64,000 nucleotides of DNA from Salinicola acroporae. GTDB lineage: Bacteria; Pseudomonadota; Gammaproteobacteria; Pseudomonadales; Halomonadaceae. Under the pieces are notes generated by a model. The model saw only the letters and a list, made by a program, of their open reading frames with translations, was not told the origin of the DNA and did not search any database. Positions 25,287 through 27,667 of this stretch are shown one piece after another; position 1 is the first letter of the stretch, and each line of letters starts with the position of its first letter. The stretch lies in contig NZ_PZJW01000003.1 in the NCBI RefSeq assembly GCF_003206615.1, forward strand, positions 1-64,000. The letters run 5' to 3'. Position numbers and translations under genes: made by a program.

Positions 25287-25982
25287 TCAATCGCCCTCGA
25301 TCCGTCGGATCCCATCGTCTTCGATCACGATCCGGCGCTGCTTGTAGAGCCGGCCGATGGCCTGCTTGAAGGCATTCTTGCTGACGCCGAGGCGCGCCTT
25401 GATGACCTCGGCCGGGCTCTTGTCGCCGAGGGCCAGGAACCCATCATTGGCGGCCAGCGCTGCCAGCACCTTGTCGCCGACCACATCCAGACGCGCCTGC
25501 CCCGGCGGCAACAGCGATAGATCCAGGCGCGCGTCGTCACGCACCCGGCGCACATAGCCATCCACACGATCGCCTCGGCGTAGCGGGCGCGACATGTCAT
25601 CGTGATACAGCAGCCCCCAGAACCGGTTGTTGACCACTGCCTTGGCGCCGAGATCGGTCAAATCCGAGATCACCAGCGACACGCGGTCCCCCGTCGTCAG
25701 CCCTTCCGACTCGTCCTGCAGGAACTTGTCGAGTTTCATGCTGGCCACCGGGCGCATGCGATCGTCGACATAGATCATCACCAGCACCCGCTTGCCCTCG
25801 TCAGGGCGAAAGCGCTGCTCGCCGAACGGTAGCAGCAGATCCTTGGGTCGGCCCCAGTTCAGGAAAGCGCCGATGTCATTGACCTTCGTCACGCGCAGAT
25901 AAGCGACGTCACCCACGTTGGCCTGCAATTCGGCGGCGGTAGGGGCATCGGCGGGAGCGTCGTCCCGAGGAGGGCGGGTCAT
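25287..25982 (-). CDS. CvfB-like S1-domain RNA-binding protein
   Basis: A 231-residue protein with tandem S1-like OB folds and a C-terminal winged helix, the CvfB/YitL arrangement. Visible elements are VGDVAYLRVTKVNDIGAFLNWG (first S1), GDRVSLVISDLTDLGAKAVVNN (second), GDRVDGYVRRVRDDARLDLSL (third) and a helical end with KARLGVSKNAFKQAIGRLYKQ (wHTH). CvfB in Staphylococcus binds RNA and influences virulence regulators; in proteobacteria the role is unknown. The ATG at 25982 is chosen for homology. The frame stays open to 26072 but the extra residues look non-native, and the ribosome binding site is weak. Confidence 0.8.
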   Translation of the reverse strand: MTRPPRDDAPADAPTAAELQANVGDVAYLRVTKVNDIGAFLNWGRPKDLLLPFGEQRFRPDEGKRVLVMIYVDDRMRPVASMKLDKFLQDESEGLTTGDRVSLVISDLTDLGAKAVVNNRFWGLLYHDDMSRPLRRGDRVDGYVRRVRDDARLDLSLLPPGQARLDVVGDKVLAALAANDGFLALGDKSPAEVIKARLGVSKNAFKQAIGRLYKQRRIVIEDDGIRRIEGD

Positions 25983-26043
25983 GGCGTACTCTGGCTGACA
26001 AGCGGTGACTGGGAAGGATCCATTATGGCGGGCGCGGCGATGT

Positions 26044-26100
26044 GGAGCAAAGAAGCGCAGCTCGCAGCACACGCGGCTGCCTTGGCAGCCGCCTTGCTCC
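26044..26100. promoter_or_regulatory. Extended stem-loop upstream of the S1-domain gene
   Basis: GGAGCAA (26044-26050) pairs with TTGCTCC (26094-26100), enclosing an inner perfect stem GCGGCTGCC / GGCAGCCGC (26073-26092). It sits in the divergent region between the S1-domain gene and the first secreted-protein gene. It could be the 5' leader structure of the RNA-binding protein gene. Confidence 0.3.
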
Positions 26101-26287
26101 GCATTCCCTGCGCGCAGAAAGAAGGTTTACACTATCCTCACGCCTCATGGCTTCGACCTTTGTATCAATCCCATCGATAGTCGAATTCACTACACGTGAT
26201 TAGCAGACTAAAGAACAGACTCCCATAATGTCATCACAGATCGAGGCCGAGAGGCCCTAGTAAAAAAGACATTTTGGAGGCCACACC

Positions 26288-26659
26288 ATGAAAAACCGTA
26301 TTCTCGCAGCTATCGCTATTGCCGTCGCCCTGCCCGCTGCCGCCCAGGCCAACAGCCTCGCAGCCGAGCGTCATTTCGACCAACAGAGCGAACCGCTCAG
26401 CATCGAGCAGACCGCGCAGTATCATGCGCTGCCGACCCGCTATAGCGTCGAAACGGTCAACGGTGGCCATAGCGCCGCTGCCGACCAGGCACTGCAGAAC
26501 GTTGCCGACTCGACTCAACTGAGCACCGATGTTCATCCGTCTCATAACGGCCTGATCGGTGAAGGACAAAGCGACGCCGCGCGCCAGGCTCTGCGAAACG
26601 CCACTCAAACCGTCAGCAATGACAAAGGCAATGTCGAAGTGAACTTCGCCAGCCTGTAA
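26288..26659 (+). CDS. Small secreted protein, copy 1, function unknown
   Basis: A 123-residue protein with a clear signal peptide (MKNRILAAIAIAVALPAAAQA, cleaved before NS). The mature part of about 102 residues has three recognisable blocks shared with its downstream paralog: QTAQYHALPTRY, GGHSAAADQALQNVADSTQL and GEGQSDAARQALRN. It lacks cysteines and membrane segments and is predicted to be helical and periplasmic or extracellular. GGAGG lies eight bases before the ATG. I do not recognise a family. Confidence 0.75.
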   Translation: MKNRILAAIAIAVALPAAAQANSLAAERHFDQQSEPLSIEQTAQYHALPTRYSVETVNGGHSAAADQALQNVADSTQLSTDVHPSHNGLIGEGQSDAARQALRNATQTVSNDKGNVEVNFASL

Positions 26660-26697
26660 GTCTCCGCCTTCAGGCACGAAGACAGCGCTAGTCCATC

Positions 26698-26721
26698 AAG
26701 GGAGCCCTCGGCTCCCTTTTT
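26698..26721 (+). terminator. Intrinsic terminator after secreted protein copy 1
   Basis: AAGGGAGCC-CTC-GGCTCCCTT forms a perfect stem with a three-base loop followed by a run of five T. It isolates copy 1 from copy 2, so the two genes are transcribed separately. Confidence 0.85.
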
Positions 26722-26888
26722 GGTGTTTTGGACTAAAGGAAGGACAAACGCCAGGCGCCAGATCCATCATCATTGATGTCGATAGTTTGTTTCAGAGAAT
26801 TCGATTAGCAGCCTAACATGAATCGTCCGACAATGACGTCACGGATCGGGGCCCATCGCCCGCATGAATGATCATTGGAGGCAACATC

Positions 26889-27257
26889 ATGAAAAACCGC
26901 ATTCTCGCCGCTATCGCCATTGCCATCGCACTACCCGCTGCCGCTCAAGCCAGCGATGCCACCAGTGCTCTCTTCGCCGCACAGCGTGAAACGCTCAACC
27001 TCAAACAGACCGCTCAATACCACGCGCTGCCGACTCGCTATAACGGCGATACCTTGATCGGCGGGCACAGTGCCGCGGCCGCCCAGTCCCTGCAGAATGT
27101 CGCCGACGCCACGCAACTGGCCACCCGCATTCCGGCAAGCCGTAATCCGCTGGTCGGTGAAGGGCAGAGTGATGCCGCAGCTCAAGCGCTACAGGGCACC
27201 GGACAGTTCGCCCATGACACCCGAGGTAACGGCGAGGTCAGCTTCACCACGCTATAA
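26889..27257 (+). CDS. Small secreted protein, copy 2, function unknown
   Basis: A 122-residue paralog of the preceding gene. The signal peptide is almost identical (one Val to Ile change in the hydrophobic core). The mature protein keeps the YHALPTRY, GGHSAAAAQSLQNVADATQL and GEGQSDAAAQAL blocks but differs in the N-terminal and linker segments. GGAGG lies eight bases before the ATG at 26889; an in-frame ATG at 26868 is less likely. The signal peptide and three blocks are conserved while the rest has diverged, which suggests both copies are functional. Confidence 0.75.
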   Translation: MKNRILAAIAIAIALPAAAQASDATSALFAAQRETLNLKQTAQYHALPTRYNGDTLIGGHSAAAAQSLQNVADATQLATRIPASRNPLVGEGQSDAAAQALQGTGQFAHDTRGNGEVSFTTL

Positions 27258-27284
27258 GCTGGCCCTTCGCAACACCAACGCAAC

Positions 27285-27308
27285 AGCCGCCGGCCAAAGT
27301 CGGCGGCT
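27285..27308 (+). terminator. Hairpin after secreted protein copy 2
   Basis: AGCCGCCG and CGGCGGCT form a perfect eight-base-pair stem with an eight-base loop, about 28 bases past the stop. It is followed by TGTCGTT, not a full T-run. Confidence 0.55.
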
Positions 27309-27667
27309 TGTCGTTCGCCCACAGGATCCCCTCTTCCTTTCCCTCGTTCGCTTCCCTTTATTCCTTACCTCTGAATCATCATCCCTTACCCTTGGTGCTT
27401 ATTCCTCTACCCCTGCCTTTCGGGACACCTCCAGCCGCAGAGGTCTCATAGGCTGTCTCTCCCTGTGAAAGCGAGGCTGGCTTGAACTCACCGATCCAAC
27501 ATACGTCATACAAAAAAGCCTTGGCTTTGCAAGGAATGTCAAGGAAATCGGGGGCAAAAAATGGTCTCTCCCGCCGATGAAATTTGGCTACGCTGAATGT
27601 AATGAAATATTACCAAGCCAGGCCATGGCTTGAATGTCTCAGGGACAGTGTGCGGAGACCCGGTCTC
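27309..27667. other. Intergenic region before the second GGDEF gene
   Basis: About 360 bases with a pyrimidine-rich first half (TTCCTTTCCCTCG and similar). There is no convincing gene. In-frame ATG/TTG codons at 27602 and 27584 extend the next gene but lack ribosome binding sites. Confidence 0.4.

Follow-up and report, generated by a model that had tools for sequence, protein, structure and literature searches.

The locus studied here raises the question of why a bacterium should keep two adjacent genes for nearly the same small exported protein, and whether these are independently controlled duplicates or members of a larger set under common control. The window, that is, the whole stretch of 64,000 nucleotides from Salinicola acroporae that was analysed (contig NZ_PZJW01000003.1, positions 1 to 64,000), carries these two genes, here called copies A and B, as a tandem pair in which both open reading frames are intact and the encoded proteins are 62% identical. 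The near-identical signal peptides that a sequence-only reading had described are there, with 20 of the first 21 residues being the same in A and B, as are the YHALPTRY, GGHSAAA and GEGQSDAA blocks that it listed, and the leader motif that it had picked out, GATTAGCAG(A/C)CTAA, lies at 26198-26211 and 26803-26816. With such protein identity and such matches in the leader pattern, the similarity between A and B far exceeds chance. The features on which the argument depends are the following.

26164..26178, + strand: LysR-type box of copy A, ATC-N9-GAT (T-N11-A dyad), centre at about -65 from the predicted transcription start
26200..26211, + strand: SlyA-type palindrome of copy A, TTAGCAGACTAA, overlapping the -35 element TTAGCA (26200-26205)
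26224..26229, + strand: -10 element of copy A, CATAAT, 18 bp from the -35 element (promoter scan)
26245..26256, + strand: probable 5' UTR hairpin of copy A, GGCC-GAGA-GGCC, about 10 nt from the predicted transcript start (folding)
26275..26279, + strand: ribosome binding site of copy A, TGGAG (leader alignment)
26288..26659, + strand: copy A gene, 123-aa exported protein, signal peptide at about residues 1-21 (LPAAAQA)
26698..26718, + strand: terminator-like stem-loop followed by a T-tract, between A and B (terminator scan)
26769..26783, + strand: LysR-type box of copy B, ATC-N9-GAT (leader comparison, composite pattern match)
26805..26816, + strand: SlyA-type palindrome of copy B, TTAGCAGCCTAA (leader comparison, composite pattern match)
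26829..26834, + strand: weaker -10 element of copy B, GACAAT (pattern match; not called by the promoter scan)
26889..27257, + strand: copy B gene, 122-aa exported protein, start ATG at 26889
27286..27307, + strand: GC-rich stem after copy B with no clear T-tract, possible weak terminator (read in the sequence)

The promoter of copy A (TTAGCA-18-CATAAT, 26200-26229) is the sole sigma-70-like call in 26000-27500, and its predicted start at about 26236 puts the centre of the LysR-type box near -65 and the palindrome near -30. In the case of copy B an upstream ATG at 26868 would add seven residues to the protein. The claim that each copy has a promoter and a terminator of its own stands for the promoter of A and is plausible for its terminator, whereas copy B has the weaker -10 element and a weak terminator candidate (the stem at 27286-27307 was not called by the terminator scan); as for the terminator-like sites, two were found against a mean of 1.6 in shuffles of the region. 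An Rfam search over 25900-27400 gave no match. Judging from the sequence, the copies seem to be separately transcribed, and the earlier description of two transcription units appears right. That they would also be separately regulated is a different matter, since the same control module precedes each of them and the evidence favours common regulation.

The duplication is real, but the family does not end with the pair. The 4.37-Mb genome (G000) has four full copies at three genomic places, with copy C (G000:C27:510684-511052) and copy D (G000:C1:94213-94575) being 53% and 51% identical to A, respectively, and two weaker relatives at C23:189762 and C31:173835. A CRISPR-like array lies upstream of copy C (L004:69-1600, on G000:C27), in which a 28-nt repeat, GTGCGCTGCCGCCCAGGCAGCTCAGAAA, recurs with a period of about 60 nt; we take this repeat to resemble type I-F. 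The count in this genome and its relatives that had been proposed found the family in 18 of 18 Salinicola genomes, with between one and five full-length matches per genome (all at E 2.4e-39 or lower) and 54 in total, a number that excludes the broken B copy of S. lusitanus and one mis-started row (L057). Two shorter, more distant Salinicola proteins (L082 and L083) were kept out of the leader statistics and counted among the distant paralogues, and neither the protein alignment A3 nor the composition count, which covers 53 members, includes L074, one of the 54, in which some bases are masked. Salinicola belongs to the Halomonadaceae. Among 250 genomes sampled from the bacterial family, a profile search matched at least 36; the 18 of these that are not Salinicola gave only weak matches (best E 2.5e-10 to 6.5e-4), and the count is a minimum, as G018, unmatched there, was matched with a broader profile. 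That broader profile matched four of 293 genomes sampled from the order, all of them within the Halomonadaceae.

Searches of Pfam and NCBIfam with A and B gave sub-threshold matches only, and 25 diverse members gave no family above threshold (matches at E up to 0.01, one member each). The weak match to DUF4148 (PF13663), a family of small proteins exported by way of an N-terminal signal peptide, covers residues 1-41, mainly the signal peptide, and was rejected at 16.5 and 13.7 bits against a gathering cut-off of 27. Protein A had no match in a plasmid collection, and no title naming the family was found among the matches listed for the literature on small periplasmic or hypothetical proteins of Salinicola and Halomonas, on proteomics and on SlyA. 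As far as the Pfam and NCBIfam libraries reach, this is an undescribed and lineage-restricted family, and the view that its kind was unfamiliar agrees with the lack of any curated family above cut-off. It is a multi-copy family of small (94-124 aa), apparently exported proteins, so far seen only in Halomonadaceae. The gene next to copy A on its upstream side encodes an S1-type RNA-binding protein, presumably CvfB-like, of which a homologue was found within the stretch fetched at 15 of the 38 loci, these coming from 14 other genomes; at 11 further loci the neighbours are those of copy C, at three they are those of copy D, and at nine no reference neighbour is present (some loci show the same place twice in this count). 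Because neighbours recur in this way, the copies appear to reside at a few fixed genomic places, and several species have extra tandem copies at the A place.

What these genes have in common is most evident in front of them. Alignment of 56 leaders delimited a sharply bounded module, for which the statistics were taken on 54. Upstream of the module the commonest base reaches only 22-65% of the leaders, whereas inside it ATC (93, 93 and 81%), GATA (96-100%), TTC (87-100%), GATTAGC (81-100%), CTAA (91-100%) and the -10 element ATAAT (81-100%) are conserved, as are TCA, GGT and AGGCC further downstream in the module. The LysR-type box, in the form ATY-N9-GAT, is present in 54 of 54 Salinicola leaders, and the SlyA-type palindrome TTAG-N4-CTAA over the -35 element is strict in 47 of them. 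In 42 of these 47 the palindrome begins 36 nt after the start of the LysR-type box, and in the remaining five the distance is 42 nt. A strict palindrome is missing from the five D-type copies, TTCG replacing TTAG in those that match the composite pattern, and also from L023 and L028. Judged by these alignments, conservation between species is stronger in the control region than in the proteins. In one copy of each of four Salinicola genomes (leaders L024-L027) a long, structured, GC-rich 5' UTR has been inserted, and the module is about 75 nt more distant from the start codon.

The module also predicts where family genes are to be found. The pattern GATTAGCNNNCTAA-N11-CCATAAT with up to three mismatches has four matches in the 4.37-Mb genome, all before family copies, against one for its reversed control. 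The composite pattern (ATC-N9-GAT-N21-TTAG-N4-CTAA, up to one mismatch) gave 52 matches in the 18 Salinicola genomes against three for the reversed control; a scripted comparison of positions assigned 48 of the 52 to 48 different family genes, each match lying no more than 250 bp ahead of its gene, and every one of the 37 perfect matches is among them. Six of the 54 family genes have no composite match at one mismatch, and three of the four exceptions, all one-mismatch matches (G004:C2, G005:C1:450127, G013:C154 and G017:C1:1090464), are nearly the same sequence in three genomes. Two loci of genus g20 suggested a form of the composite in which the gap is 20 nt; this form has six matches in the 250 genomes of the bacterial family and none for the control, and all six precede a gene of this kind. 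Five of them stand before family genes already found by the profile search; the sixth, in genus g7, is followed by a gene for a 94-aa protein with a signal peptide and no profile match, which is 36% identical to L066 (E 3e-18 in a single comparison), L066 being itself a weak member (E 9.5e-6) and the similarity lying partly in the signal peptide. On these sequence similarities the g7 gene is likely a family member that the promoter pattern found and the protein profile missed. The half-module ATC-N9-GATAGTC-N3-TTC, with up to two mismatches, was rejected as too loose to serve by itself as a regulon definition, since the control has 26 matches to its 69.

Which regulators might read this module? 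The SlyA consensus has been given as TTAGCAAGCTAA, refined to TTAN6TAA (PMC5797941), and near the -35 element of ydhI there is a SlyA site with 75% identity to this consensus (PMC6401476). Palindromes of this type are found in the promoters of the family: within 150 nt upstream of the gene, 48 of the 54 Salinicola copies have a site with no more than one mismatch of TTAGCNNGCTAA, compared with 0.13% of dinucleotide shuffles, and so do 11 of the 13 fetched distant relatives from other genera (12 loci with 13 genes among the non-Salinicola matches), compared with 0.7% of shuffles. None of seven more distant Salinicola paralogues has a site within one mismatch of TTAGCNNGCTAA, and hence not every relative is under a SlyA-type box. 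The distant paralogues L010, L084, L085 and L087 (G000:C23:189762 and relatives) have similar leaders of their own (GCCGACAG...CTGTCGAC, by eye), without the SlyA/LysR module. At two loci of other genera (L060:1430-1475 and L179:1536-1600) the palindrome is followed by a second, imperfect copy, an arrangement that suggests binding there may be cooperative.

Over the whole genome TTAGCNNGCTAA occurs within one mismatch at 27 places, four of which are the leaders of A to D, and its reversed control at 91. None of the 27 places adjoins slyA, and inspection by eye of the 3-kb loci around five further perfect places recognised no MarR-like ORF beside them. One perfect site (L120:1501, G000:C30:217076) lies between two divergent transporter-like genes and another (L117:1501, G000:C27:5992) between a transporter-like gene and one for a histidine-rich exported protein, the types being judged from sequence; both are possible further SlyA targets. 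The genome encodes one protein (G000:C29:9321-9749) that matches NF002926 with 198 bits against a cut-off of 120. This NCBIfam entry (PRK03573) we take to be the SlyA model, and the solved relatives agree: the best of them are SlyA entries, and residues of about 56-73 of the orthologue, presumably the DNA-reading helix, are nearly those of the solved entries (IGVEAPSLVRTLDQL versus IGIEQPSLVRTLDQL). Matches over the cut-off of this model occur in all 18 Salinicola genomes and in each of the 18 other genomes that have a family match, and also in nine of 12 sampled genomes without a match in the 250-genome search, two of which (G018 and G023) were later found to have a member. Because SlyA orthologues are so common, their presence alone does not tie SlyA to the family genes. 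The promoters resemble those of the SlyA/RovA systems (MarR family) of Enterobacteriaceae, such as ydhI and slyA, in having the same 12-bp palindrome (TTAGCAAGCTAA or TTAN6TAA) near -35 and in the presence of a SlyA orthologue; unlike in those systems, the palindrome stands at a fixed distance from a LysR-type box and the composite, in Salinicola, is nearly confined to one gene family.

For LysR-type proteins, PMC8407307 describes a usual layout in which the T-N11-A box lies near -65 and an activation site occupies -35 and -10, and it also describes the spacing of the sites and their extent of 50-60 bp. The ATY-N9-GAT box of all 54 leaders is such a dyad, its position in copy A being counted from the predicted start. 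The family promoters share with those activated by LysR-type regulators (LTTR) both a dyad that has its centre near -65 and a further site that covers the -35 element, and they differ from them in that no LysR gene was recognised by eye beside the A, C and D copies at the loci read and in that the targets are scattered over the genome. A single LysR-type regulator might thus cover the whole 48-bp element, with recognition at -65 and activation at -35, and no MarR or SlyA protein would be involved. The spacing and the 50-60 bp extent described in PMC8407307 agree with this account, as does the fixed 36-nt register of the two sites in 42 of the 47 leaders with a strict palindrome. Nevertheless, in five copies, found in four genomes and perhaps going back to a single inherited event, the palindrome has shifted 6 bp towards the -10 element and the LysR-type box has not moved, while L060, L061 and L063 of genus g19 keep the palindrome at -39 to -51 from the ATG with no LysR-type box at the expected place, the palindrome there lying, by eye, downstream of the likely promoter. 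The palindrome sequence is, moreover, that of the published SlyA site. Regulation by one LysR-type protein alone is for these reasons rather improbable in our opinion, if still a serious contender.

We favour a scheme with two inputs. Each Salinicola copy has its own promoter, and nearly all of these promoters share one composite switch, at which a dimer of a SlyA-type (MarR family) protein most likely sits on TTAG-N4-CTAA over the -35 element and represses, and a LysR-type activator most likely binds ATY-N9-GAT near -65 and recruits the polymerase to a promoter with a poor -35 element. A MarR ligand, a LysR inducer or both may signal envelope or chemical stress, upon which all copies would be turned on together; a large dose of protein would then be exported, and the extra copies would serve gene dosage. 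That a dose-amplified exported protein is subject to SlyA-type repression combined with LysR-type activation seems to us, from the sequence patterns, an evenly balanced proposition. The small hairpin at the 5' end may protect the transcript, and it is the weakest part. Near the transcript start, the predicted folds of the leaders are more stable than those of shuffles (mean z of -2.3 over 46 distinct leaders), the support coming from per-sequence folding only; different copies show different stems there, and the longer fold of the copy A leader pairs the bases of 26245-26256 differently. Because short stems are frequent in shuffles too (66% have stems of four or more pairs), we regard the hairpin as only probable.

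The proteins themselves begin with MKxRILAAIA...ALPAAAQA-N, in which a putative signal peptide with an AXA cleavage site can be read directly. Behind the AQA that ends the signal peptide come a variable stretch, LPT-x-Y, GGHS-x-AA-x-x-AL, a second block of the form G-x-G-(H/Q)-S-x-AA-x-x-AL and a tail, while the relatives of other genera are shorter and without the tail. AlphaFold2 with 55 sequences returned low confidence (pLDDT 49, pTM 0.21). The mature part is hydrophilic and acidic and has, over 53 members, a mean GRAVY of -0.42, a mean pI of 4.7 (range 4.1-5.8), no cysteine and a mean of 8.2% glycine (4.0-12.7%; 5.9% in copy A). The Salinicola proteins are probably intrinsically disordered, according to this modelling, a low pLDDT being something that fits disorder and proves nothing. 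Hydrophilins are stress-induced, disordered, hydrophilic proteins with more than 6% glycine and a hydrophilicity index above 1, and the family shares with them the low fold confidence, the hydrophilic character and a glycine mean of 8%. Membership was rejected, as hydrophilicity is too low for this definition and copy A has 5.9% glycine. That the exported proteins have a protective role in the periplasm, as shields of the envelope, we suggest tentatively.

The conserved blocks might instead bind metal through GGHS and the second G-x-G-H/Q-S block, in which case the promoter would be metal-responsive. H61 is conserved in 90% or more and S62 is invariant among 55 aligned members, and most Salinicola proteins contain GxxS-x-AA twice. 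Yet at the H/Q position of the second block many members have Q and others H, cysteine is absent from all 53 members counted, only one histidine is near-invariant, and no metal-sensor box was recognised, all of which makes metal binding quite unlikely.

We examined the history of the copies at the codon level in 21 tandem-locus sequences out of the 54 copies. The comparison of dN/dS between copies that had been suggested gave 0.22 for A versus B (Nei-Gojobori). By the same method the focal A gave 0.05-0.13 against five orthologues and the focal B 0.19-0.26 against three, and B is thus under weaker purifying selection than A; the very close pair of copy A in S. corii and in MAG EAC73, with few changes, gave about 0.4. 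Synonymous divergence between A and B (dS of about 1.25) points to an old duplication. Decay of one copy, which would have spoken against maintained copies, is visible neither in A nor in B here, but in S. lusitanus, the closest named relative, where copy A stands at 97% identity, copy B is a pseudogene (L012:1960-2380) that has lost its start and most of its signal peptide, with the frame shifted and the palindrome decayed. In five of 11 within-genome comparisons, runs of identical polymorphic sites were longer than in permutations (p 0.0004 or less), the longest run lying in the front half in three of the five and in the tail in two; the test permutes polymorphic sites, and regional constraint can inflate its result. 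In S. salarius DSM 18044 the identity of A and B is 97% over the first 54 codons and 67% over codons 55-90. These patterns point to gene conversion between copies in some species, whereas the focal pair has no conversion tract (p = 0.58), and the B copies of S. acroporae, S. corii and S. avicenniae, which keep a different front part, look unconverted.

Since the Salinicola copies descend from one gene with its leader, the shared module could be a mere remnant of duplication devoid of regulatory meaning. This is largely refuted and very improbable: the module stands out against both the unconserved sequence upstream and its own spacers, it occurs at three places with conserved neighbours of their own before proteins only about 50-60% identical, and it is also present in genus g20 with highly diverged proteins. 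Just as remote is the idea of secreted effectors or toxins against competitors diversified by recombination between copies, for which fast divergence outside the signal peptide and the conversion-like tracts between tandem copies would speak, and against which stand purifying selection in most comparisons, conserved neighbours with no toxin or immunity gene seen by eye beside the copies, and the lack of a Pfam or NCBIfam family match.

In its widest form, our proposal is that a two-input promoter has been dedicated to one gene family across the Halomonadaceae and has outlasted the sequence of the proteins it controls, these acting as a dose-dependent, disordered shield of the envelope of halophiles in which composition and dose matter over sequence. 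We consider this speculative and rather less likely than not. What had been an orphan pair of genes becomes a testable regulon, with a composite operator that predicts its targets, a named SlyA orthologue and a second, LysR-type input. If the proposal is true, regulation would outlast protein sequence in a secreted orphan family, the module would be a marker for MarR/LysR signalling in halophiles, and small secreted proteins that diverge fast could be found by their promoter instead of by their sequence.
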